A stretch of 38,828 nucleotides of DNA, from positions 1 through 38,828 of the IMG/VR virus record IMGVR_UViG_3300008267_000127; one strand, written 5' to 3'. The DNA comes from a virus. Both the position numbers and the translations under genes were made by a program. The notes under the pieces are model-generated. The model had not been told where the DNA came from, did not search any database, and saw only the letters and a list, made by a program, of their open reading frames with translations. How positions within the stretch are numbered: the first letter of the stretch is position 1; each line of letters opens with the position of its first letter. Shown in pieces: positions 23,868 through 34,129 of the stretch.

Positions 23868-23895
23868 ATTATATAGCGCCACGCTTACACGTCAA
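23868..23895 (-). promoter_or_regulatory. Strong sigma70-type promoter (P1) with operator-like sequence
   Basis: On the minus strand, TTGACG (23895-23890) is followed after 16 bases by a perfect TATAAT (23873-23868). The spacer holds the shared 13-mer, read on the plus strand as TAGCGCCACGCTT (23874-23886). The -35 overlaps the stop codon of ninB. It drives 23845 to 21226. The leader shares AACAAGGGAGAG and then ATATGAC with the gene at 27794, suggesting common regulation or descent. Confidence 0.8.
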
Positions 23896-24272
23896 GCGCC
23901 TTTTTCGCTCCACGCCACGCCGCGTTCATCGCCCCATTGCTGTATAAACGTAATCAGATCGGCCATTTGTGCCACGGTTAGTTTGCTGCTGCGGAAGCCC
24001 ATGGGAAACGGGCGACCGTCTAGCCCCATCTCGAACACCTGTTCATGGCCGCACGCTTGCATGAACAGCGCCTTCCATACGTCTGGCGTTGCAGCACGGC
24101 CATCAGGACGCGCCTTGGCAACATCGGTCAGCATCGCCCACAGCTTGGCGTTTTGCTCATCGCTGCGGTTGCGTGGCTTAATGACGGCCATCCAATCGGC
24201 AGGCGCTTTCTGCACAAGGCTGATAGCGCGGGCGCGGTTGCGGTCGCTGGAAAGTGACACATGATAAGTCAT
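23892..24272 (-). CDS. ninB: NinB recombination protein
   Basis: The 126-aa product fits NinB (lambda Orf), an SSB-binding recombination mediator that assists Red/ERF-type annealing. Landmarks are RSDEQNAKLWAMLTDVAK near 36-53, DVWKALFMQACGHE near 64-77, then GLDGRPFPMGFRSSKLT near 83-99 and MADLITFIQQWGDERGV near 102-118. Length is close to lambda NinB (146 aa). It is last in the recombination operon and its TGA overlaps the -35 box of the next promoter. Upstream gene overlap is ATGA. Confidence 0.9.
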   Translation of the reverse strand: MTYHVSLSSDRNRARAISLVQKAPADWMAVIKPRNRSDEQNAKLWAMLTDVAKARPDGRAATPDVWKALFMQACGHEQVFEMGLDGRPFPMGFRSSKLTVAQMADLITFIQQWGDERGVAWSEKGA

Positions 24273-24643
24273 GCTTCATCTCCGTCGATCACGTAACCCG
24301 CCTCACGCGCTGCCCGCTGCAATGACGGCGACTGGCGGGCAAGGTCTTTGGCAATTTGTAGCGCGTCAACGCCATACTTTGCCTCAAATCTTGCCCAGCC
24401 CAGCACGTCCGTCTGTTCACGATGCGCCTCTGCACAGCCTGGCACGGTGTAGTAATCTGGCACCTTAAGCCCCATGCCCTTGCCGCCAGCGTAATCAACG
24501 TGCATTGCCTGCACCTTGCCGCTGCATACGTGGCCGGCTTTGCCTTCAATCAAGCAGCAAAAGCCACGCACAAATTGCAAATGCGCCGGAAAGCGTTTGC
24601 CATCGTTTTGGCGGCCTGAATTACGGTGGCGGCGTTGCAACAT
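24269..24643 (-). CDS. DUF968/HNH-like recombination-associated protein
   Basis: The 124-aa product starts at ATG 24643, which overlaps the upstream stop (TAATG); a start 75 bases earlier is ignored. It has CLIEGKAGHVCSGKVQAMHVDY (C-x7-C then QAMH near 31-50), GGKGMGLKVPDYYTVPGCAEAHREQTDVLG near 53-82 and then an alpha-helical end. This C...C...H...KxPD...PxC...H.E.H pattern is that of phage DUF968/HNH-fold proteins, which often lie beside NinB. A nuclease or branched-DNA binding role is expected from the family, not shown here. Confidence 0.68.
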   Translation of the reverse strand: MLQRRHRNSGRQNDGKRFPAHLQFVRGFCCLIEGKAGHVCSGKVQAMHVDYAGGKGMGLKVPDYYTVPGCAEAHREQTDVLGWARFEAKYGVDALQIAKDLARQSPSLQRAAREAGYVIDGDEA

Positions 24644-25131
24644 TAGCCGCGCTCCTTGGCTTTCATTGCCATGCGTTCCAATGCGTGAAAGCGGCAATGA
24701 CAAGGCGTGCAAAGCCACGTTACGTTAAGCGGGTCTGCATAATCGTGGTGGTGTGCTACAGTTTTGCGTTCGCCGCAAAAAGCGCAATCCATCGGGCGCA
24801 ACCTGCCATCCCTGACCGCATTTCCAACAATAATATTAGCCGCGCGCTTTTCTGGTGAGCGTGCCGCCCGTGCTATAACACGTGCTGCCGCTTTAAGCCG
24901 CCGATGCGGCAACTTAGAGCGTTCACGATCATAAGCCCGTATCTGCTCTGCTTTTTCATAATTGCGTTTGCGGGCGCGCGCCTTAACGCATGTTTTGCAT
25001 TGTGACGCGTAGCCATCGGCGCAGCCGGGCGCTTTGTAAAACTGGTCTATGCCAAAAAATCCGCCGCAAAGCGTGCATTTCTTTACGGGCGCGTCGTTTG
25101 CGGGTATTGGGTTATTCACTTGTCGCTCCAT
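24643..25131 (-). CDS. HNH-type zinc endonuclease-like protein
   Basis: The 162-aa product has an N-terminal zinc knuckle (CTLCGGFFGIDQFYK...CKTC near 19-48), a basic middle (ARARKRNYEKAEQIRAYDRERS) and a C-terminal HNH-like motif: CAFCGERKTVAHHHDYADPL near 115-134 and VTWLCTPCHCRFHALE near 136-151. The pattern C-x2-C...H-H...N...C-x2-C-x3-H is that of HNH nucleases that occur as free-standing or recombination-linked genes. ATG 25131 is preferred; a GTG at 25116 with GGAG upstream is an alternative. Possible role in nicking or resolving DNA. Confidence 0.7.
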   Translation of the reverse strand: MERQVNNPIPANDAPVKKCTLCGGFFGIDQFYKAPGCADGYASQCKTCVKARARKRNYEKAEQIRAYDRERSKLPHRRLKAAARVIARAARSPEKRAANIIVGNAVRDGRLRPMDCAFCGERKTVAHHHDYADPLNVTWLCTPCHCRFHALERMAMKAKERG

Positions 25132-25146
25132 CAAAGCGGGAAGTCA

Positions 25147-25175
25147 GGGGGCAGGCGTTGGCGCGCGCTGCCCCC
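25147..25175 (-). promoter_or_regulatory. G5C/C5G hairpin between ssb and the HNH gene
   Basis: GGGGGCAG (25147-25154) pairs perfectly with CTGCCCCC (25168-25175), with a short inner GCG/CGC pairing in the 13-base loop. It lies in the 85-base gap after ssb on the minus strand. No U-tract follows in the minus direction. It resembles the hairpins at 1867-1890 and 2515-2541 in its G5/C5 stem and may separate ssb from downstream expression. Confidence 0.5.
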
Positions 25176-25216
25176 AAAACTTATGCGCCTATTATGGCTG
25201 GCGCGCAAGCTAAAAA

Positions 25217-25597
25217 CTAAAACGGGACTTCGCTGCCGTCGTCCAAGTCATCAAGCGGCGCACGTCGCGGGCTGCCACCATTGTCACGCTGCGGCGCTGC
25301 ATTGTCATCACGCTGGCCGCCGCCAAGCAACGTCACCTCGGCAACCTCAATCTTGAGATCGGGCCGCCCATCATATACGCCGGCAGTCAGCTTGCCAGAT
25401 ACGGCAACGCTTTCACCCTTGCGGATAAAGCCGGCCACCTTTTCGCCGCGTGTTCCCCAAAGGCTGCACTTATACCACGTTGCATCTTTGTCGCGGCCAT
25501 TGTTGATGGCAACCGTCCACTCTGTAACAGTGCTGCCGCCTGCGGCCTTGCTGGCGGCATCTTTGCCGACACGTCCGGCGATGCTGATAATCTGCAT
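25217..25597 (-). CDS. ssb: Single-stranded DNA-binding protein
   Basis: The 126-aa product has the OB-fold SSB pattern: MQIISIAGRVGKDAASK, VTEWTVAINNG near 24-34, ATWYKCSLWGTRGEKVAGFIRKGESVAVSG (split: WYKCSLWG near 41-48 and GFIRKGESVAVSG near 57-69), then a disordered linker and the acidic tip LDDGSEVPF that recruits partner proteins. It should coat ssDNA during replication and recombination and work with ERF and NinB in this operon. Length is shorter than E. coli SSB (178 aa) but usual for phages. Confidence 0.93.
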   Translation of the reverse strand: MQIISIAGRVGKDAASKAAGGSTVTEWTVAINNGRDKDATWYKCSLWGTRGEKVAGFIRKGESVAVSGKLTAGVYDGRPDLKIEVAEVTLLGGGQRDDNAAPQRDNGGSPRRAPLDDLDDGSEVPF

Positions 25598-25609
25598 GTG
25601 TGTTGCTCC

Positions 25610-26305
25610 TTAACCTGCAAACGTGATTGGCAGCGGGCCATTGTCGCCCTTGCCAAGCATCGAATAAACATCGTCATACAAGCCCATGAGCTTGTCATAC
25701 TGCGCTTCATGGCTGGCCTTCAACCGCAGCAGCGCCTTACCGTTCTTGCTGTGCCACAGTGCCAGCGCGCCAGCATCACCAGACTTGCCGATGGCGTCCA
25801 GTTCGATGGCCTGCTTGTCGCACCAATCGGCAACCTTGGCGGTCACATCGTCTTCACCGCCTGGATCGGTTGGCTCAGGATTGACGTTAGCAGGCGGCTG
25901 GCGGGGCTTGGCGGCCTTCGTGGCTGCGTTGCCGTCATCATCCTCTGGTGCCACGCCAAACGCCGTCTGGAGGCTGTAGCGGCGGGCGTAGGTGATGGCG
26001 CTGCCATAGCCTTGCGCGTCTTGCTTGCTGGCCGGCACAAACAACACACCACAAGACAGTTCTTCACCGCTAGCATGGCAGATCAGCGTTTCGACCGCCA
26101 CCCCGCCTTGTGCATCATGGAACGCCTGCCGAAACCAAAGCCCATTGGCAGACAGCGCCGGCTTGATGGCGTCAACAACCGCGCCGAGGTCGGCATATTT
26201 CGTCTTGAAGTGCGGGTTATTGCTGTCTTTCGTAGCGCCCTCGATCTCGGGGAACGCCTTGGCCATTGCCGCGAAAAGCGCCGCGCGCGGATTATCGTTT
26301 GCCAT
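25610..26305 (-). CDS. erf: ERF-family single-strand annealing protein
   Basis: The 231-aa product matches ERF: ALFAAMAKAFPEIEGATKDSNN near 9-30, HFKTKYADLGAVVDAIKPAL near 32-51, GLWFRQ, then YGSAITYARRYSLQTAFGV near 99-117, the ERF signature. It anneals complementary single strands in recombination and genome circularisation, which headful-packaged P22-type DNA needs. P22 Erf is 204 aa. C-terminal part (after about 125) is variable and helical. Twelve bases separate it from ssb downstream. Confidence 0.93.
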   Translation of the reverse strand: MANDNPRAALFAAMAKAFPEIEGATKDSNNPHFKTKYADLGAVVDAIKPALSANGLWFRQAFHDAQGGVAVETLICHASGEELSCGVLFVPASKQDAQGYGSAITYARRYSLQTAFGVAPEDDDGNAATKAAKPRQPPANVNPEPTDPGGEDDVTAKVADWCDKQAIELDAIGKSGDAGALALWHSKNGKALLRLKASHEAQYDKLMGLYDDVYSMLGKGDNGPLPITFAG

Positions 26306-26310
26306 GTCTG

Positions 26311-26601
26311 TTATCCCTTCGCCAGCAATTCAGGTGACAGCCCTGCGGCCACCAGCGCCGTCCGCGCCTTTTCACGCGCAACCGCATCGCACCGCTGCTG
26401 CTGTGCAAGGTCACGCTGCGCCATGGCGTCGTCATACGCCTCTTGCACGGTTGCGCCACGTCCAGACGGGCATGGGCCATGCGCGGCCTGCACAATCACA
26501 AACACGCCGATTGACGAACGCGAGACATGCACGAACTCCACGTCATCGGGAAGGCTGTGAGTGTCCAATGCGGCTTGCATGGCGGTTAGATATGCGTGCA
26601 T
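26311..26601 (-). CDS. Hypothetical protein, 96 aa
   Basis: The 96-aa product begins MHAYLTAMQAALDTHSLP; its ATG 26601 has GGGAGAG six bases upstream. A mid part VEFVHVSRSSIGVFVIVQAAHGP suggests a beta sheet, followed by a helix rich in Gln and Arg (DDAMAQRDLAQQQRCDAVAREK). It overlaps the upstream gene by 16 bases. No family recognised. Confidence 0.55.
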   Translation of the reverse strand: MHAYLTAMQAALDTHSLPDDVEFVHVSRSSIGVFVIVQAAHGPCPSGRGATVQEAYDDAMAQRDLAQQQRCDAVAREKARTALVAAGLSPELLAKG

Positions 26602-26828
26602 TTCATGCTCTCCCGATAGGCTTGCACCGCTGCCACAATGGCACGGATGCGCTTCACAATGCCGGCAAACGTGCGCCGGCCCACATAACCCGCAACTTGC
26701 CCAAACGTGGTGGCAGGCGGGCGGTCACACAAAGCGGCGTTGCTGTTGCGCTCCATTTCGCTTTGCACGATGATCCAGCCGCGCGGGCGGGTGCCTGGTT
26801 CACGCCAGTTTGCGTCCGTCCAGATCAT
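26586..26828 (-). CDS. Hypothetical protein, 80 aa
   Basis: The 80-aa product is aromatic-rich at the start (MIWTDANWREPGTRPRGWIIVQ) and then basic (YVGRRTFAGIVKRIRAIVAAV). The basic, partly amphipathic second half might bind nucleic acid. ATGA overlap with the upstream gene. No family recognised. Confidence 0.52.
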   Translation of the reverse strand: MIWTDANWREPGTRPRGWIIVQSEMERNSNAALCDRPPATTFGQVAGYVGRRTFAGIVKRIRAIVAAVQAYRESMKCTHI

Positions 26829-27106
26829 TTGCCGGAAGCCTTGGCAATAGCGGCGCGCATATTGCGTTCAATACGGTCGTCGTCGTCCATATCGCCATCG
26901 CCGCCTAGCCAACGATTAAGCAGAGCCTGCGCCGCTTCCAGCAAGTCAGGCGCGGCGGCAATAAGGCGGGCGTTTGCTTGCGCCTTTTCGCCGTCGTAAA
27001 TGATGGCGATTGGCAGCCGGTTATTGGCGCAAATCTCGTGCGACATGTCCAGATCATCAGGCGTGGCCCATTCATTCCATGGCCCCGGCGTGTGTTGTCC
27101 GCTCAT
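26825..27106 (-). CDS. Phage protein of the HTPGPW...LIAAAPDLLEA family
   Basis: The 93-aa product has the hallmark start SGQHTPGPWNEW and the later ANARLIAAAPDLLEAAQ near 44-60, which is a very common small phage protein of unknown function in proteobacterial phages. A charged acidic loop (GDGDMDDDDRIERN) follows and a short helix ends the chain. Function unknown despite frequent occurrence. Overlaps both neighbours by four bases. Confidence 0.72.
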   Translation of the reverse strand: MSGQHTPGPWNEWATPDDLDMSHEICANNRLPIAIIYDGEKAQANARLIAAAPDLLEAAQALLNRWLGGDGDMDDDDRIERNMRAAIAKASGK

Positions 27107-27453
27107 TTCACATTCCCCTTATTGACCGGCTGCGACGGTGCCAGCAGCGTTTGCAGATACGTTACGGCGGCTTCCGGGCAGTCGCTGTAATCCCACTCAC
27201 GGCGCAGGTCGATTGCCTCGCTGTCAGGGTCTTCGGGCGACACACAGCTTTCCGCGTAATGGTCGTAAACGGCTTCCTTGGCCGCGTCCTGCAAAGCCTC
27301 GTCAAGCTCGTCATCGCAGCCGGTGAAGTGCTTAAGCAGGCCGGCAATCGCCGCAATCGTGCGGAAGTGCTGCGACGGCGTAACTGGTTCGGCATGTGCA
27401 AAGCGTTCGTGGCGCTCTTGCAGCCGTGCGGCGTGTGCGTTGTCGTCGATCAT
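27103..27453 (-). CDS. Hypothetical acidic protein, 116 aa
   Basis: The 116-aa product is acidic and helical with LKHFTGCDDELDEALQDAAKEAVYDHYAE (near 40-68), then SPEDPDSEAIDLRREW and a C-terminal helix. Its many acidic residues and Cys pair (C46, C70) are notable. ATGA overlaps on both sides. No family recognised. Confidence 0.55.
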   Translation of the reverse strand: MIDDNAHAARLQERHERFAHAEPVTPSQHFRTIAAIAGLLKHFTGCDDELDEALQDAAKEAVYDHYAESCVSPEDPDSEAIDLRREWDYSDCPEAAVTYLQTLLAPSQPVNKGNVK

Positions 27454-27629
27454 GCTACACCCGTCGTCAGTTTGTGCGTCAGAAGGTCGGCACGAGCTGC
27501 GTCGCGGCGAAGCCTCGCAGCTTCAAGATTGGCTTCTGCTTGCTTGAGTGCCTGCAAAGCAAGATCGACCGATTTTTGTTCGCCGTCTAGCCGCTGTTGC
27601 AGCAATTCCAAAACTGTCCATTCGCTCAT
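27450..27629 (-). CDS. Coiled-coil protein, first gene of the recombination operon, 59 aa
   Basis: The 59-aa product is a near-continuous coiled coil (LELLQQRLDGEQKSVDLALQ, then ALKQAEANLEAARLRRDA). ATG 27629 has AGGGAGAGAG just upstream; an in-frame GTG or ATG at 27656 lies in the leader and is rejected. It is the first gene of the minus-strand unit starting from the promoter at 27679-27707. Function unknown; a small oligomerising regulator or inhibitor is possible. Confidence 0.6.
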   Translation of the reverse strand: MSEWTVLELLQQRLDGEQKSVDLALQALKQAEANLEAARLRRDAARADLLTHKLTTGVA

Positions 27630-27678
27630 CGTCTCTCTCCCTATCGCCGCTGCCACTCGGTCTCACACGGCATGTCCT

Positions 27679-27707
27679 TTTATAAGCGCCGCGCTTTATC
27701 CCGTCAA
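27679..27707 (-). promoter_or_regulatory. Strong minus-strand promoter (P2) with operator-like palindrome
   Basis: TTGACG (27707-27702) and TATAAA (27684-27679) are 17 bases apart on the minus strand. The spacer holds AAGCGC-C-GCGCTT (27684-27696, plus-strand reading), a perfect palindrome about one central base and the best copy of the shared 13-mer. It drives the ninB/ssb/erf operon. The predicted leader is about 40 bases. Confidence 0.8.
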
Positions 27708-27718
27708 CAACATTTTTC

Positions 27719-27731
27719 TAGCGCCACGTTA
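27719..27731 (+). promoter_or_regulatory. Fifth copy of the operator-like 13-mer between divergent promoters
   Basis: TAGCGCCACGTTA matches the P1 copy TAGCGCCACGCTT at 11 of 13 positions. It lies between the -35 box of P2 (27702-27707) and that of P3 (27742-27747), so a bound regulator could affect both directions. It is not itself inside a promoter. Confidence 0.55.
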
Positions 27732-27741
27732 TTTTTTCTGA

Positions 27742-27771
27742 TTGACGCAAAAGCCGGCGCATGGGTATATG
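27742..27771 (+). promoter_or_regulatory. Plus-strand promoter (P3)
   Basis: TTGACG (27742-27747) is followed after 18 bases by TATATG (27766-27771); GTATAT one base earlier gives a 17-base spacer. The spacer holds AAAGCCGGCGCAT (27750-27762), an imperfect, reverse-oriented copy of the shared 13-mer. It drives the regulator at 27794 and the early plus-strand genes. Confidence 0.7.
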
Positions 27772-27793
27772 CCCCCATAACAAGGGAGAGCAT

Positions 27794-28216
27794 ATGACAC
27801 ACAGCAAATCCTGGACGCCAGCAGAGGACGCCATGTTGCGCGCCATGATGGCCGCTGGCATGACGCACCGGCAAGTATCGGCACAGCTCGGGCGCACCAT
27901 GCACGGCGTGCAATCGCGGGCCATGCGGCTGGGCGTGAATGTTGACCCGATCCGCTGGAACGACACGATGGACGCGGTTTTGCAGCGCATGTGGCAAACG
28001 ACTGCCACGGCTGCCGAGATTGGCGATGCTGTCGGACGTTCGCCAAGCGCCGTGTGCAAGCGCGCAAAACTGCTTGGCCTCGCCCGTCGCGGCAAGGGAT
28101 ATGTTCGCCCACCGTCGCCAATCGTGAAGGGTGCAGAGGAAAAGCACGCCGACCGCATTGCGACAATCCGCTTTGAAACGCATTATTGCGAAGCCGCCGA
28201 CCGCAATCCAGGTTGA
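27794..28216 (+). CDS. Tandem GcrA/Myb-like HTH regulator
   Basis: The 140-aa product has two successive HTH units: SWTPAEDAMLRAMMAAGMTH, then RQVSAQLGRTMHGVQSRAMR (residues about 6-47) and RWNDTMDAVLQRMWQTTATA, then AEIGDAVGRSPSAVCKRAK (about 54-96). Both resemble the W-T..E...L..LW..G.S...IA..LG unit of the cell-cycle regulator GcrA and of SANT/Myb domains. ATG 27794 has AAGGGAGAG upstream. It is the first gene on the plus strand and may regulate phage transcription or interfere with GcrA control; DNA target unknown. Confidence 0.72.
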   Translation: MTHSKSWTPAEDAMLRAMMAAGMTHRQVSAQLGRTMHGVQSRAMRLGVNVDPIRWNDTMDAVLQRMWQTTATAAEIGDAVGRSPSAVCKRAKLLGLARRGKGYVRPPSPIVKGAEEKHADRIATIRFETHYCEAADRNPG

Positions 28217-28236
28217 CCAATTATGGGGTATGCAGC

Positions 28237-28374
28237 ATGATCGCTCTGTTACCATGGCGCTGGCAAGCCCGCATTCTGTTTTGGCTTGGCCATAGCGTGC
28301 CTTACATCGCCACATGGACGGGCCGCACGTTGAACGATGTGGAACGCGAACTTCATATAAGGGCAACGCAATGA
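28237..28374 (+). CDS. Small protein, 45 aa
   Basis: The 45-aa product (MIALLPWRWQARILFWLGHS...) is hydrophobic and aromatic at the start and charged at the end (LNDVERELHIRATQ). It resembles a small HTH-like or membrane-associated peptide. ATG 28237 has only a weak upstream GGGG; the stop overlaps the next start (ATGA), which supports translation. Confidence 0.45.
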   Translation: MIALLPWRWQARILFWLGHSVPYIATWTGRTLNDVERELHIRATQ

Positions 28375-28643
28375 ATGGACTTTTTTTTCAATGGCTGTTT
28401 GGCAAGCGTCCAGCAAAAAACGCCGCGCTTGAACTTGCTACGGCACGTCTGCAAGACGACGCCCGCCGCCAGTTTGAAGCAAGACAAGAATGGTATGCGC
28501 CTTACGCACGTTTGCCACAACGCGCTGCATCCGAACTAGCCAAGCATGGCGCTGCAATGCGACGTGAAAGCGAACGAGCGCGGGTGTTGGCAAAGATGAA
28601 CGCGCTGCGGCGTGAATTGGGCATGGGGGAGTATGTGCCGTGA
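28371..28643 (+). CDS. Hypothetical basic protein, 90 aa
   Basis: The 90-aa product starts MNGLFFQWLFGKRPAK, then is a long basic/Ala-rich helix (ELATARLQDDARRQFEARQE..., RRESERARVLAKMNALRREL). ATG 28371 overlaps the preceding stop. The helicase follows with GTGA overlap, so it may be a helicase partner. No family recognised. Confidence 0.55.
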   Translation: MNGLFFQWLFGKRPAKNAALELATARLQDDARRQFEARQEWYAPYARLPQRAASELAKHGAAMRRESERARVLAKMNALRRELGMGEYVP

Positions 28644-30031
28644 CGTATGAAGAATATCTTGCCGCCAAGCTGGCGATTGACCCGCCAACCGGCATTGACG
28701 AGCCTGGCGACCTTCACCCGTCGCTATTCGGCTATCAGTCGGACATTGTGCGGTGGGCGCTTCGCCGTGGCCGTGCTGCTATTTTTGCAGGCACTGGGCT
28801 TGGCAAAACGCGCATGGCCATTGAGTGGGCAACGCACGCTGCCAATTTCACCGGCAAGCCGACGCTGATCTTGACCCCGCTTGCCGTGGCCGCGCAATTC
28901 GTGGCTGAGGGGGATACGTTTGGCCGTCCGGTCATTCGCGCCACGTCTCAAGCGGATATTGCCGGCAATGGCGTCTATGTCACTAACTATGACAAGCTGT
29001 CACGTTTTGACCTTGCAGCGTTCGGCGGCATTGTGCTGGATGAAAGCAGCATCCTCAAGGCGCATGACGGCAAGACGCGGGCGGCGTTGATCGAGGCGGC
29101 GCAAGCCATCCCGTTTCGGCTTGCGGCAACTGCCACGCCAGCCCCAAACGATTATATGGAATTGGGCAACCATGCCGAGTTCCTTGGTGTCATGTCCTAT
29201 TCGGAAATGCTGGCCATGTTCTTTGTTCATGACGGCGGCGACACGGCGAAGTGGCGTTTGAAAAAACATGCCGAGGCTGATTTTTGGCGATGGATGTGCA
29301 GTTGGGCTGTTATGCTGACAAAGCCAAGCGACCTTGGCTATGATGACACGGCGCACAAGCTGCCGCCGCTGTTGACCAATCAGCACACGGTTGCCGTTGA
29401 ATACAAATCCAGCATCGAGACAGGGCTATTGTTTCCGGTGGAAGCCCGCACGATGCAAGAGCGGCTGGGCGCGCGGCGTGATAGCATCGCCGATCGTGTG
29501 GAATGTGCTGCGTCACTCATCAACGGTAACAACCGGCCATGGGTGGCATGGTGCAATCTCAACGGTGAAGCTGACGCGCTTGCGGCGGCTATTCCTGGTG
29601 CGGTCAACGTCTCCGGCTCCGATAGTGAGGCAATCAAGGAAGCGCGTCTTGAAGCGTTTGCGCGCGGCGATATTCGTGTGCTGGTCACTAAGCCGTCAAT
29701 CTGCGGCTTTGGCATGAACTGGCAGCATTGCGCCGATACGGCTTTTGTGGGCCTCAATGATAGCTTTGAGCAGGTCTTTCAGGCGGTGCGGCGTTTCTGG
29801 CGTTTTGGGCAGACTAAGCCGGTCAATGTCCACTTCATCGCCGCTGAGACAGAAGGCGCGGTGGTGGCGAACCTGCAACGCAAGGAAGCCGACGCCAACC
29901 GAATGATTGCATCAATGGTGCATCACATGGCCGATATTACATCGGCTCAAATCAAGGGCGTAGTGCGCGACAAAGCGGGCTATCAGCCAAAACCAACGGC
30001 GCTGCCGTCTTTTCTGGGGAAAGTAGCATGA
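28640..30031 (+). CDS. SNF2/DEAD-type superfamily 2 helicase
   Basis: The 463-aa product has the SF2 motif set: Walker A AGTGLGKT (residues 50-57), Walker B LDESS (133-137), motif III TATPAPN (164-170), and C-terminal QAVRRFWRFGQTKPV (381-395, motif VI). Motif Q-like YQSDIVRWAL is near 32-41. Phage helicases of this type work in replication, recombination or ejection of proteins from DNA. Start is GTG 28640, overlapping the previous stop. It is followed by the methyltransferase with a 4-base overlap. Confidence 0.86.
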   Translation: MTYEEYLAAKLAIDPPTGIDEPGDLHPSLFGYQSDIVRWALRRGRAAIFAGTGLGKTRMAIEWATHAANFTGKPTLILTPLAVAAQFVAEGDTFGRPVIRATSQADIAGNGVYVTNYDKLSRFDLAAFGGIVLDESSILKAHDGKTRAALIEAAQAIPFRLAATATPAPNDYMELGNHAEFLGVMSYSEMLAMFFVHDGGDTAKWRLKKHAEADFWRWMCSWAVMLTKPSDLGYDDTAHKLPPLLTNQHTVAVEYKSSIETGLLFPVEARTMQERLGARRDSIADRVECAASLINGNNRPWVAWCNLNGEADALAAAIPGAVNVSGSDSEAIKEARLEAFARGDIRVLVTKPSICGFGMNWQHCADTAFVGLNDSFEQVFQAVRRFWRFGQTKPVNVHFIAAETEGAVVANLQRKEADANRMIASMVHHMADITSAQIKGVVRDKAGYQPKPTALPSFLGKVA

Positions 30032-30918
30032 CTATCGAAGCACTGAACTATGCCGAGGGCAAGGATTGGGCGATCTGGAACGGCGATTGCATTGAGGTTA
30101 TGCGCCAGCTTCCCGATGCAAGCGTGGGATATTCTGTCTTTTCGCCGCCATTTGCCAGCCTTTACACCTACAGCAACAGCGACCGCGACCTTGGTAACTG
30201 CAAAGATGGTGACGACTTTCTGCACCACTATGGGTTTGTCATGGAGCAGCTTGCCCGCGTGGTGAAGCCGGGCCGTCTTATCTCGATGCACTGCATGGAT
30301 ATGCCGACAAGCAAGACGCGTGACGGCGTGATCGGCGCGCGCGACTTCCCCGGCGAACTAATCCGCGCAGGGCAAGAGCATGGCCTGATTTTTCACAGCC
30401 GCGTTTGCATCTGGAAAGATCCTGTTACGGCAATGCAGCGCACGAAGGCCATCGGCCTGCTTTACAAGCAGATCAAGAAAGACAGTTGCATGAGCCGGCA
30501 GGGCTTTGCCGATTACATCGTGACCATGCGCGTGCCTGGCGACAATCCTGAGCCTGTGACACACACCGAGGATGGTTTTCCAGTCGGACTGTGGCAAAAG
30601 TATGCTTCGCCCGTTTGGATGGACATTGACCCATCTGATACGCTGCAATACCGCGCCGCCCGCGAGGCAGAGGATGAGCGCCATATCTGCCCGTTGCAGC
30701 TTGGCGTTATCCGCCGTTGCATTGAACTGTGGAGCAATCCCGGCGACGTGGTTTTATCGCCTTTTGCCGGCATCGGCAGCGAGGTTTATACCGCTGTGCA
30801 GATGGGCCGGCGCGGCATCGGCATTGAACTTAAGCCGTCATACTTTGAGCAGGCGCAGCGCAACATGGCTGATGTGCATTCTGACATGGGCGGATTGTTT
30901 AGCGAGGGGGCCGCATGA
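30028..30918 (+). CDS. DNA methyltransferase, SPPF type (N4C/N6A class)
   Basis: The 296-aa product has catalytic motif IV SPPF (39-42), after WNGDCIEVMRQLPD, and AdoMet-binding motif I SPFAGIGSE (244-252) at the C-terminal side, followed by IGIELKPSYFEQA. This order is that of beta-class DNA methyltransferases; SPPF is most usual in N4-cytosine enzymes but does not exclude N6-adenine. No restriction partner is nearby, so it is an orphan that could guard phage DNA against host restriction or regulate transcription. Confidence 0.85.
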   Translation: MTIEALNYAEGKDWAIWNGDCIEVMRQLPDASVGYSVFSPPFASLYTYSNSDRDLGNCKDGDDFLHHYGFVMEQLARVVKPGRLISMHCMDMPTSKTRDGVIGARDFPGELIRAGQEHGLIFHSRVCIWKDPVTAMQRTKAIGLLYKQIKKDSCMSRQGFADYIVTMRVPGDNPEPVTHTEDGFPVGLWQKYASPVWMDIDPSDTLQYRAAREAEDERHICPLQLGVIRRCIELWSNPGDVVLSPFAGIGSEVYTAVQMGRRGIGIELKPSYFEQAQRNMADVHSDMGGLFSEGAA

Positions 30919-31253
30919 TAGTGCTGCTATGGCCAGACAAACGTCTGTCACCTAACGCCCGCACACACTTCATGCAGCGCAGCCGTGTCGCCAGGATCGC
31001 CAAGATGGACGCAGCAACGCTGGCATACGCCGCAAAGCTTGTGCTGCCCACTGATGGCCCGATCCGCGTGCTGTGGACGCTGCACCCACCAGACAAGCGC
31101 TCGCGCGATATGGACAACGTAATCGCCAGCCTGAAGCACGCACAAGATGGCGTGGCGCTGGCATGGCGCGTTAACGACGCAAGGTTTGTGCCAACGTATC
31201 AATGGGGCGAACCCGTGCGAGGCGGGCGTGTGACGTTTGAGGTGATAGCATGA
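30915..31253 (+). CDS. rusA: RusA-type Holliday junction resolvase
   Basis: The 112-aa product (E. coli RusA is 120 aa) has LSPNARTHFMQRSRVAR near 11-27, then HPPDKRSRDMDNVIASLKHAQDGV near 57-80 with the catalytic D65 and D67, and WRVNDARF near 84-91 with a third Asp (D88). It should cut four-way junctions before packaging, working with ERF, NinB and SSB. It overlaps its neighbours by four bases. Confidence 0.9.
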   Translation: MIVLLWPDKRLSPNARTHFMQRSRVARIAKMDAATLAYAAKLVLPTDGPIRVLWTLHPPDKRSRDMDNVIASLKHAQDGVALAWRVNDARFVPTYQWGEPVRGGRVTFEVIA

Positions 31254-32074
31254 CAAGGATTGCGATCTGGTTTAGCTGCGGTGCCGCCAGCGCGGTTGCT
31301 GCAAAGCTGATTTTGTCTGAACAACCCGACGCCGTTGTGGCCTATTGCGAGACCGGTATCGAGCATCCCGACAACGAACGGTTTATGGCCGATTGCGTGC
31401 GCTGGTTCAATGTGCCGATTAAGCGGCTGTCAAATCCTGAGTATGCCGACACTTGGGATGTGTGGGAACAGCGCCGCTATATTGCTGGCATTGCGGGCGC
31501 CCCATGCACCGGGGCGCTGAAAAAGCAGCCGCGCATTGCTTTCCAGCAGCCCGGCGATACGCATGTTTTTGGTTACACTGCCGATAGCGAGGATGTGGAG
31601 CGCGCCGACAGGTTCCGCCAGCATAATCCTGAATTGTTGGTGCGCTTTCCGCTGATCGAGCGCGGCATCACAAAACAAGCCTGCCTCGCCATGTTGCAAA
31701 GCGCCGGCATCGAACTGCCGCCCATGTATGCTCTAGGCTTTCAGAACAACAACTGCATCCCATGCCCGAAGGCCACTAGCCCAAATTACTGGGCGGCAAT
31801 GCGCCTGCACTTTCCGGCAGAGTTTGCCCGCATGGTGGCGCTGTCCCGTGAACTGGGCGCACGATTGGCGCGGATGCCCGGCGATGTGCGGGTATTCATT
31901 GATGAGGTGCCGGCAGATTGGCCGACGCTTAACCCGATTGCGCCAGCGTGCGACTTTCTTTGCCACATTGCAGAGCAAGATTTGCGAGACAACGAAAAGG
32001 CCGCCGCAGACACGAAGCCCACGGCGGCCAGTTTGGATGTGCACCACAGGGGAGAGGATGCAAGCAATGGATAA
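31250..32074 (+). CDS. PAPS-reductase-like PP-loop ATPase
   Basis: The 274-aa product has a modified PP-loop FSCGAASAVAAKL (8-20), where PAPS reductases have SGGxDS, followed by AYCETGIEHPDNERF near 31-45, typical of this class. GAPCTGALKKQP near 83-94 and NNCIPCPKA near 166-174 carry Cys pairs that may bind metal. Such phage proteins are related to PAPS reductase/DndC-like enzymes. Substrate unknown; tRNA or DNA sulfur/adenylyl chemistry are possibilities. It lies between RusA and the DnaA-like gene. Confidence 0.8.
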   Translation: MTRIAIWFSCGAASAVAAKLILSEQPDAVVAYCETGIEHPDNERFMADCVRWFNVPIKRLSNPEYADTWDVWEQRRYIAGIAGAPCTGALKKQPRIAFQQPGDTHVFGYTADSEDVERADRFRQHNPELLVRFPLIERGITKQACLAMLQSAGIELPPMYALGFQNNNCIPCPKATSPNYWAAMRLHFPAEFARMVALSRELGARLARMPGDVRVFIDEVPADWPTLNPIAPACDFLCHIAEQDLRDNEKAAADTKPTAASLDVHHRGEDASNG

Positions 32075-32423
32075 CGCAAACGAGCAGCCGATGCAATACC
32101 GTCGCCGCGATGTGTTACGGGTATGCAGCAGATACTATCCCAAGACGCCGCGCCAAGAACGCATGTTGATTGTGGCCTGCGTTGCCGAACGGTTTGGCGT
32201 GACCGTCGATCAGATCATGAGCGACACGCGTAAGCAACCTATTGCCGCTGCTCGCCAGGCAGCCATGCGCGCCATTTGGGTAAAGTATGGCGATAGCACG
32301 CCAGTCATTGGCAGGATGTTCAACCGTGACCACACAACCGTCATGCACGCGCTGGGCAAGATCAACAAGCCGAGGGCTGTGTATAGTGGGGACAACGCGC
32401 CTGCCGATATTGCAACCGCGTGA
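32067..32423 (+). CDS. DnaA domain-IV-only protein
   Basis: The 118-aa product ends in a DnaA C-terminal DNA-binding domain: VAERFGVTVDQIMSDTRKQP near 39-58, AARQAAMRAIW near 61-71, and the DnaA signature NRDHTTVMHALGKI near 86-99. No AAA+ domain is present. ATG 32067 has AGAGG nine bases upstream; an in-frame ATG 32058 is possible. It could bind DnaA boxes or a phage origin, compete with host DnaA, or guide the initiator encoded just downstream. Confidence 0.84.
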   Translation: MDNANEQPMQYRRRDVLRVCSRYYPKTPRQERMLIVACVAERFGVTVDQIMSDTRKQPIAAARQAAMRAIWVKYGDSTPVIGRMFNRDHTTVMHALGKINKPRAVYSGDNAPADIATA

Positions 32424-32442
32424 CAATCGGCGCATAAACGAA

Positions 32443-32474
32443 GCGCCGGCCCCTCGGGCGAGAGAAGCCGGCGC
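32443..32474 (+). promoter_or_regulatory. Long hairpin upstream of the replication gene
   Basis: GCGCCGGC (32443-32450) pairs perfectly with GCCGGCGC (32467-32474). Within the loop CTCG (32453-32456) and CGAG (32459-32462) pair too, so a two-tier hairpin can form. No U-tract follows. It lies between the DnaA-like and replication genes and may be part of an origin, a processing site or a translation control element. Confidence 0.5.
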
Positions 32475-32501
32475 AGGTGTAACCGTTGAAAGGTAACGGC
32501 T

Positions 32502-32570
32502 ATGAACACTGATACACAAGCGCGCCTGCGCTCGCAAGATGCGGGATATACGCCAGAGGGCAATTCATGA
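32502..32570 (+). CDS. Possible leader peptide, 22 aa
   Basis: A 22-codon frame (MNTDTQARLRSQDAGYTP...) starts at ATG 32502 with GAAAGG eight bases upstream; the ribosome site sits in the loop of a small hairpin (CCGTT/AACGG). Its TGA overlaps the ATG of the replication protein (ATGA), so it may serve as a coupling leader. The peptide is polar and without family. Confidence 0.42.
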   Translation: MNTDTQARLRSQDAGYTPEGNS

Positions 32571-33316
32571 GCCGCTGGTTCCGCTTTTACGCCGAAGCAA
32601 TGCGTAATCCAAAAGTGATGCGGCTGGCAGATAATGACTTCCGGCTATGGGTTCGCCTGCTTGCCGTGGCATCTGAAAACGATGGTCGCTTGCCACCGAT
32701 TGCCGACCTTAAGCTACTGCTTAACGCCCGTTTAGACCGGCTTGCAGACGGGTTGCAGAGGCTTATAAACTCTGGCTTAATCGACGTTGCAGGGCAAGGT
32801 TATGAGCCTCATAATTGGAGCAAGTTCCAATATAAATCAGACACTTCGACGCCACGTGTAACGTTACATCGCGCAAAACGAAACGTTACTGTAACGCCCC
32901 CAGATACAGAAGCAGATACAGAAGAGATAGCTAACGCTATCTCTAAAGAGCGGGACAAGCCCGCTCGCAAACGCGCTTATCGTTGCCCGGATGATTGGCA
33001 GCCGAAGCCATTGCCAGCCGAGGTCATGGCAAAACTAACGATGATGCCGAGCGATTGGCTGGAGCAAAAACTGGCAGCCATGAAGGATTGGTCAAAGGCC
33101 AGTCCAAACGGTGCCAAGCTAGATTGGGATGCAACTTGGCGCGGATGGGTGCGCCGTGAACTGGAAAAGGAACCGAAGTATGGCAATGGACACATGGAGC
33201 GACATAACGGGCAGGGCGGTGGCCAGTATCGGCGCAGTCCCGGCCTCGAATGGGCAAAGCAGCAATTTGCCATCGGAGACGACAGCGGAACCATTGAAGC
33301 CGACGCCTGGACATAA
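32567..33316 (+). CDS. Replication initiator/replisome organiser
   Basis: The 249-aa product starts SRWFRFYAEAMRNPKVMRL, then a winged-helix-like FRLWVRLLAVASENDG and RLADGLQRLINSGLIDVAGQ near 57-77, typical of the N-terminal domain of lambda O-like and DnaD-like phage replication proteins. The middle is basic and unstructured, and a helical C-terminal region (SDWLEQKLAAMKDWSKA) is like those that recruit helicase loaders. It follows the DnaA-domain protein and hairpin, a layout typical of phage origins. Its 3' end overlaps the next gene by 137 bases. Confidence 0.75.
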   Translation: MSRWFRFYAEAMRNPKVMRLADNDFRLWVRLLAVASENDGRLPPIADLKLLLNARLDRLADGLQRLINSGLIDVAGQGYEPHNWSKFQYKSDTSTPRVTLHRAKRNVTVTPPDTEADTEEIANAISKERDKPARKRAYRCPDDWQPKPLPAEVMAKLTMMPSDWLEQKLAAMKDWSKASPNGAKLDWDATWRGWVRRELEKEPKYGNGHMERHNGQGGGQYRRSPGLEWAKQQFAIGDDSGTIEADAWT

Positions 33317-33830
33317 GCGGGCGATTGCTGAACTTGCCTTGCGCTTTCCGGCTGGCCGGGAATACGATCCCGACCAATACCAGTTGCGGCTGGAATATCT
33401 TGCCAAGGATACGGCGCATATCGCGGTGGGCCTTCTACGCCAAGCCTGCGACCGGGTGGCACAGACGGCGCGTGGCTTGCCCTACGCCAGCGAGATTTTG
33501 ACGGCAGCAACGGCGATTGTTGGAGAGCGCCAGCGCGTCAATCCAAACGAACGGCAGACGGTCAACAGCGATGGCGAGTTCATCAACCCCGGCGATGTGC
33601 CGATTGGCCATCCCGGCGAAAACGTGGAACGTTGTAAGGAACGCAATTGCCAGCTTGCACGTGACGGCGCGGCTTATCGTGTCTTTCCGGTGGGCCGGTT
33701 TAACATGGGCCGGGTGCAGGTTGAGGATGATAACGCGATTGCGCCTACCCATATTTGCAACCGTGACGGCACGTTTCGCAATCGGCACCAGGATAGCGGC
33801 GAAGTGTCGGGATTGTGGCCACGCCAATGA
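33180..33830 (+). CDS. Hypothetical replication-associated protein, 216 aa
   Basis: ATG 33180 with AAGGA eight bases upstream opens a frame that overlaps the 3' end of the replication gene by 137 bases. The protein has GHKRAIAELALRFPAGREYDP, then YQLRLEYLAKDTAHIAVGLL near 77-96 (split), and DRVAQTARGLPYASEIL; the later part includes CKERNCQLARDG and NRDGTFRNRHQDSG. Position next to the initiator suggests a helicase loader or accessory, but no P-loop is seen. It might be a zinc-binding protein. Starting later is possible. Confidence 0.6.
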   Translation: MAMDTWSDITGRAVASIGAVPASNGQSSNLPSETTAEPLKPTPGHKRAIAELALRFPAGREYDPDQYQLRLEYLAKDTAHIAVGLLRQACDRVAQTARGLPYASEILTAATAIVGERQRVNPNERQTVNSDGEFINPGDVPIGHPGENVERCKERNCQLARDGAAYRVFPVGRFNMGRVQVEDDNAIAPTHICNRDGTFRNRHQDSGEVSGLWPRQ

Positions 33831-33859
33831 TTGACGCCCGCAAAACGCCGCGCTATTGT
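33831..33859 (+). promoter_or_regulatory. Promoter (P4) of the HTH gene, probably leaderless
   Basis: TTGACG (33831-33836) and TATTGT (33854-33859) are 17 bases apart. The spacer carries AAACGCCGCGCTA (33843-33855), a copy of the shared 13-mer. Six bases separate the -10 end from the ATG at 33866, which puts the start codon at or near +1; CCCCCC precedes it and there is no ribosome site, so a leaderless mRNA is expected. Confidence 0.68.
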
Positions 33860-33865
33860 CCCCCC

Positions 33866-34129
33866 ATGACACAGCCCGCATCGCCTACGCCTGCCGAGAT
33901 CATCGCCTTTCGTGAAGCGCGCGGCATGACGCAACGTGAGATAGCAAACGCGCTAGGCGTTCACGCTGTCACATGGTCACGCTGGGAGTGCGGCAAGCTG
34001 TCGGTCAATCCAGACCGTTGGCGCGTGCTGCTGACAAAGCAAGTGCTGGCATCGGCTGGAAGCGCAAGGGACAAGCTGGCATCTGTGGCGCATGTGATTG
34101 AGCATGGAACGCTGGAGGCAGCGGCATGA
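33866..34129 (+). CDS. XRE-type HTH regulator, probable autoregulated repressor
   Basis: The 87-aa product has the HTH MTQREIANALGVHAVTWSRW near 21-40, followed by ECGKLSVNPDRWRVLL, typical of XRE/Cro-like DNA-binding domains. It is short, with no room for a LexA-like protease or large dimer domain, so it is more Cro-like than cI-like. An in-frame upstream start at 33815 has no ribosome site and crosses the promoter. The P4 promoter that drives it carries the same 13-mer as P1-P3, so it is the best candidate to bind that site and repress itself and the early promoters. The next gene overlaps by ATGA. Confidence 0.78.
   Translation: MTQPASPTPAEIIAFREARGMTQREIANALGVHAVTWSRWECGKLSVNPDRWRVLLTKQVLASAGSARDKLASVAHVIEHGTLEAAA

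Follow-up and report, generated by a model that had tools for sequence, protein, structure and literature searches.

A 13-base dyad predicted to act as a shared operator at early promoters of a P22-like phage with no detectable integrase

When the same short sequence recurs within several promoters of one phage genome, it is reasonable to ask whether a single regulator acts through all of them, and for what purpose. This question is raised by IMG/VR record IMGVR_UViG_3300008267_000127, a complete viral record whose entire 38,828 bp (the window) were analysed, and which encodes portal, terminase, coat and DNA-ejection proteins like those of P22, APSE and Sf6. An initial annotation had proposed that five copies of one 13-base sequence serve as operators through which one phage helix-turn-helix (HTH) protein controls the early operons of both strands and its own gene, as a switch operating without integrase. 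All five 13-mers are present (23874-23886, 27684-27696, 27719-27731, 27750-27762 and 33843-33855), although only the first three and the last prove to be copies of one site. The sharing of one operator by several early promoters is well supported by sequence comparison, and is backed by operators of nearly the same sequence in other phages' immunity regions. We further judge it moderately probable that a phage-encoded dimeric HTH repressor, most likely the 87-aa XRE protein encoded at 33866-34129 on the plus strand, uses the four copies as operators.

The four copies form a dyad with two 6-bp arms around a central base, WARCGYNRCGYTW, and the copy at 27684-27696 is, as first described, a perfect palindrome around that base. 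The symmetrised dyad matches the genome five times against an expectation of 0.24, a count reached by none of 200 dinucleotide shuffles; 2.1 Mb of other phage DNA yields 13 matches, many of which are duplicated loci. This pattern was fitted to the sites themselves, and therefore leave-one-out matrices were run as a safeguard. With a symmetrised matrix built from any three sites, the fourth always ranks between 3 and 5 among the 38,828 positions, and the only better-scoring positions are the other sites and 28418. When all are scored with the internal matrix, the top five (15.9-17.7 bits) are separated by a gap from the remainder (12.9 bits and below). A plain 13-mer consensus allowing two mismatches is not enriched (30 matches against 22.4 ± 5.3) while the dyad is, and thus the signal is carried by dyad symmetry. 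The sequence at 27750-27762 was rejected as a dyad copy, given its rank of 184 with the internal matrix and of 1849 with an external matrix described below. A further match, AAACGCCGCGCTT at 28418-28430 (external rank 15), is probably a coding coincidence rather than an operator, because it lies in coding sequence (codons N-A-A-L) and the identical 13-mer recurs away from any promoter in two other loci (L148 and L169).

Three of the four promoter spacers that had been assigned a copy retain one, each in a promoter of sigma70 type. P1, on the minus strand, is TTGACG-N16-TATAAT (-35 at 23895-23890, -10 at 23873-23868), overlaps the 3' end of a ninB-like gene and agrees with the consensus at 11 of 12 positions; its spacer holds TAGCGCCACGCTT (23874-23886; internal rank 4), which abuts the -10 box. 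P2, also on the minus strand (TTGACG-N17-TATAAA; -35 at 27707-27702, -10 at 27684-27679), heads the leftward early operon and contains the perfect palindrome AAGCGCCGCGCTT (27684-27696), which overlaps the first base of the -10 box. P4, the plus-strand promoter of the XRE gene (TTGACG-N17-TATTGT; -35 at 33831-33836, -10 at 33854-33859), carries AAACGCCGCGCTA (33843-33855; internal rank 2) overlapping the first two bases of its -10 box. The remaining promoter, P3 (TTGACG-N18-TATATG, 27742-27771, plus strand), heads the rightward early operon and contains the rejected 13-mer. The term 'early' is inferred here from gene content. Between the divergent promoters P2 and P3, outside any spacer, the centre of TAGCGCCACGTTA (27719-27731; internal rank 5) falls no more than 0.5 bp from the point halfway between their -35 boxes (27707-27702 and 27742-27747), with both predicted starts about 53 bp downstream of the site, which bears out the placement of a copy between a divergent pair. 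The claim that the rightward unit shares the same control finds indirect support in this midpoint site, and none in P3 itself.

Independent examples of the operator were found in other phages. Two loci, L253 and L254, had been included for an Aca10-like gene, and the operator was noticed there through the dyad pattern; Pseudomonas phage Atpa001, a Hollowayvirus, was reached by Cro homology. L253/L254 carry four exact dyads beside a Cro/YdaS gene (PF15943, PF14549), in a divergent region where they form two pairs with a spacing of 22-23 bp, and one dyad is inside TTGACT-N16-TATAAT; the best homologues of this Cro (61%) are in Pseudomonas phages. In Atpa001, two triplets with a spacing of 20-25 bp flank the annotated repressor in an OL/OR-like arrangement and comprise TAGCGTTACGCTA, TAGCGTAACGCTA and four weaker copies, the two named sites being nearly identical to the sequence studied here. 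An external matrix built from six sites of L253/L254 and Atpa001 only places the copies at 23874, 27684, 27719 and 33843 at ranks 1, 2, 3 and 9 of the studied genome, and a single Atpa001 palindrome used as seed returns 23874 and 27719 among its three best positions. All four copies lie in regulatory DNA; the promoters of a sister phage lack the dyad. A promoter-based scan of the collection (TTGACGGGATAAN{8,13}TTATA) led instead to a group of phages in which a similar leftward promoter, adjoining a Cro-like gene, has another palindrome, AAACGGATCGTTT; we rejected this as an analogue rather than the same operator. Six contigs (L208, L211, L213, L215, L225 and L227) have in common the promoter TTGACGGGATAAACGGATCGTTTATA with a different palindrome in its spacer, and in L044, on the same contig as L213, the TTGACGGGATAAACGGATCGTTTATA promoter adjoins a Cro-like gene.

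The lambdoid precedent for such sites is instructive. RacR of the Rac prophage has been shown experimentally to bind between racR and ydaS, where GCCTAA/TTAGGC repeats lie (PMC5700373), and both that region and the Atpa001 immunity region resemble the studied phage in having 6-1-6 dyads in divergent early promoters. In those systems, however, the operators form arrays 20-25 bp apart next to repressor and Cro/YdaS genes, whereas here the sites are dispersed over three promoter regions; the two valid sites of the divergent region are 35 bp apart and the others are single. Searches of the whole record detected neither a tyrosine integrase (PF00589) nor a serine recombinase (PF00239), with positive controls, and no RacR, YdaS or P22-Cro (PF14549 and PF15943 searches, and phmmer with three such proteins). 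Therefore, the absence of integrase stands as first reported, but a lysis/lysogeny switch is not indicated, and the sites more likely serve autoregulated repression or a shut-off of early genes.

What, then, would bind the dyads? Of the two HTH proteins originally put forward, the XRE protein at 33866 is most likely the better candidate. Its HTH_31 domain is the Pfam domain listed for Aca10, and its closest solved relative is 7XI5 (E=3.9e-8, with 34% identity across almost the whole of Aca10), the structure of Aca10 from Pseudomonas citronellolis (PMC9410881). An AlphaFold model reached a pLDDT of 80 with an alignment and 55 from the single sequence, and Foldseek gave 7xi5 as the top match at 1.3 Å, with the qualification that the alignment included Aca10 relatives and may favour Aca10. 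An Aca10-like hidden Markov model scores the protein at 51 bits, compared with 29.5 or less for non-members. As is characteristic of Aca regulators, this small HTH protein has an inverted repeat in its own core promoter, namely the dyad at 33843-33855 in P4. Aca10 itself binds a 21-bp palindrome overlapping the -35 and -10 boxes of its promoter (PMC9410881), and Aca10-family viral loci mostly have one Aca10-type dyad in a promoter spacer, which is the position of the dyads studied here. Published Aca operators always include one inverted repeat in the core promoter and sometimes a second one upstream or downstream (PMC9410906), and by analogy P2 with its midpoint site may resemble the promoters that have two. 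We propose that the protein would act like an Aca or Cro-type autorepressor, yet we assign it to neither group.

Several observations weigh against this choice of binder. A tree places the protein outside the Aca10 clade, with weak support. Residue R44 of Aca10, which is critical for DNA binding, aligns to a leucine, and the Aca10 motif GDRRMHP reads GKLSVNP. The protein also scores 36 bits against S24-type repressors. Furthermore, the Aca10 operator, AATACGCTCATTGAGCGTATT, differs from the dyad in both sequence and length, and the Aca10-type operator ATACGCTCATTGAGCGTAT, present in most Aca10-like loci, has no match within five mismatches in the studied genome. In L253 and Atpa001, the shared operator adjoins Cro/YdaS-type genes and not an Aca10-like gene, and the Aca10-like gene of L253 has a different upstream dyad, of diverged Aca10 type; the binder in these two phages is probably a Cro/CI-type protein. 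Searches for close relatives of the proteins at 33866 and 27794 found none in viral contigs and only weak ones in phage records.

In L253 (9653), L256 (3374), L261 (5942), L267 (5194), L270 (2068), L272 (6773) and others, we separately observed Aca10-type operators, mostly one per locus, in promoter spacers that precede the aca gene by a few hundred bases. The intervening genes are small and are candidate anti-defence genes.

These points lead to the strongest of the competing explanations, in which the repressor that binds the dyads comes from outside the phage genome. It could be a RacR/YdaS- or CI/Cro-type protein from a prophage or plasmid resident in the cell, or a regulator of the host itself, with the sites either kept from a temperate ancestor or used to restrain the phage. 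This possibility carries some weight, given that the near-identical operators of L253/L254 and Atpa001 lie beside Cro/YdaS and repressor genes and that no RacR/YdaS/Cro-type protein is detectable in the studied genome. However, four intact sites, including one at P4, which drives the XRE gene that the phage itself carries, better fit a phage-encoded binder, and unused sites should decay in a compact genome. We therefore consider a foreign binder unlikely.

Less probable still is the second HTH protein of the initial annotation (27794-28216, plus strand), a GcrA-like tandem-HTH protein above the PF07750 cut-off that falls in phrog_323 and would act with sigma70 at these promoters. The GcrA family (PF07750) acts at sigma70 promoters, and the gene is the first of the rightward early operon and adjoins two of the sites. 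Even so, the family is not known to bind such dyads, and P3, the gene's own promoter, has no convincing copy. The GcrA target is methylated GANTC (PMC3667746); this motif is missing from P1, P2/P3 and P4, and a reading through methylation was rejected for that reason. The whole genome has three GANTC sites against 92 ± 9 expected from dinucleotide shuffles. None was found in the sister-phage pieces examined, and the motif is depleted in many related loci, a depletion that may reflect CcrM-type hosts or the phage methyltransferase.

Equally improbable is the view that there is no operator and that GC-rich spacers followed by an alphaproteobacterial-style extended -10 (GCTATA) create look-alikes: the -10-proximal half, GCTATA, is indeed partly ordinary promoter sequence, found in 11 of 142 distinct promoter-like sites (276 phage loci, 2.7 Mb of other phage DNA), and the plain consensus is unenriched, but the -35-proximal half is conserved too, one site is found away from any spacer, the sites are recovered by leave-one-out matrices as well as by the external matrix, and the full dyad occurs in a single one of the 142, which is itself the L253 operator.

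If the XRE protein is the binder, its dimer would occupy P1 and P2 and block the leftward recombination operon together with an internal unit of uncharacterised small genes. By binding its own P4 promoter, it would also exert negative feedback; the P4 transcript is probably leaderless, because only 6 nt separate the end of the -10 box from the ATG. Repression of P2 may be reinforced by the midpoint site, which may also, or instead, tune P3. Early transcription would be expected to come in a burst and then to be shut off as the repressor builds up, with no lysogenic state. More tentatively, we suggest that an Aca-like autorepressor could have become a genome-wide early regulator of an apparently virulent P22-like phage while using a lambdoid-immunity operator. 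In that case, the small genes at the head of the P1 and P2 units would be candidates for a part in host takeover or anti-defence, by analogy with Aca8 in archaeal viruses.

Phage repressors with dispersed operators are known in kind, and the control of several early genes by one such protein has a precedent in Aca8 (PMC11065993). In SIRV2 and other archaeal viruses, as proposed here, one HTH protein has an element at its own gene and a shared promoter element through which the shut-off of many early genes is proposed (PMC11065993). That element belongs to an archaeal promoter (BRE/TATA) and is unrelated in sequence. Mycobacteriophage L5-type repressors likewise act at several short sites throughout the genome (PMC9283540), but their stoperators are asymmetric and are bound by a monomeric immunity repressor, whereas the sites studied here are dyads at promoters of a phage in which no lysogeny module is seen. 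The likeness to Aca10 extends to a small XRE repressor that can be aligned over nearly its full length, is the top structural match and has its operator, here a putative one, in a spacer overlapping the -10 box. Aca10 loci examined have at most one close operator (three mismatches or fewer), in contrast to four sites in three promoter regions here. A limited literature search turned up no case in which a lambdoid-type operator is combined with an Aca10-related protein and a lysogeny module is lacking.

Should this proposal be correct, immunity-type operators would be at work in a phage that has no lysogeny genes, and a small repressor related to Aca10 would govern several early promoters rather than just one operon. 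A shared operator would also offer a way to choose candidate anti-defence genes, an approach already taken with archaeal viruses.

The genes concerned are arranged as follows. Leftward from P2, the early operon encodes small proteins without assigned roles, an ERF annealing protein, SSB (single-stranded DNA-binding protein), an HNH-like protein and NinB. The rightward operon encodes the GcrA-like protein, a helicase, a DNA methyltransferase, a PAPS-reductase-like protein, a DnaA-C protein and a replication initiator, and is followed by the XRE gene and terminase. The first gene behind P1 (23624-23845, minus strand) encodes a 73-aa protein with no Pfam, PHROG or NCBIfam match, and the first behind P2 (27450-27629) likewise has no family match. 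The second half of the genome has no near DNA match in the phage collection searched, and a scan of genomes for the portal protein as a guide to the host led to mixed metagenome bins.

One sister phage was found, on three contigs (L001-L003/L083). In L083, ninB is kept (90% amino acid identity) but is followed by a different gene, and P1 is absent. Its XRE gene preceding terminase belongs to a different type. The units headed by P1 and P4 are both missing, along with the 33866-type XRE gene. A divergent region of L083 (5093-5166) carries three YATGCCGCA copies with spacings of 41 and 24, alongside a small HTH gene whose start is probably leaderless; these repeats may be a different operator. 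Finally, the DnaA-C protein of the studied phage (32067-32423, 118 aa) carries a DnaA domain IV (Bac_DnaA_C, E=5e-19) but no ATPase domain, and is a possible origin-binding protein.

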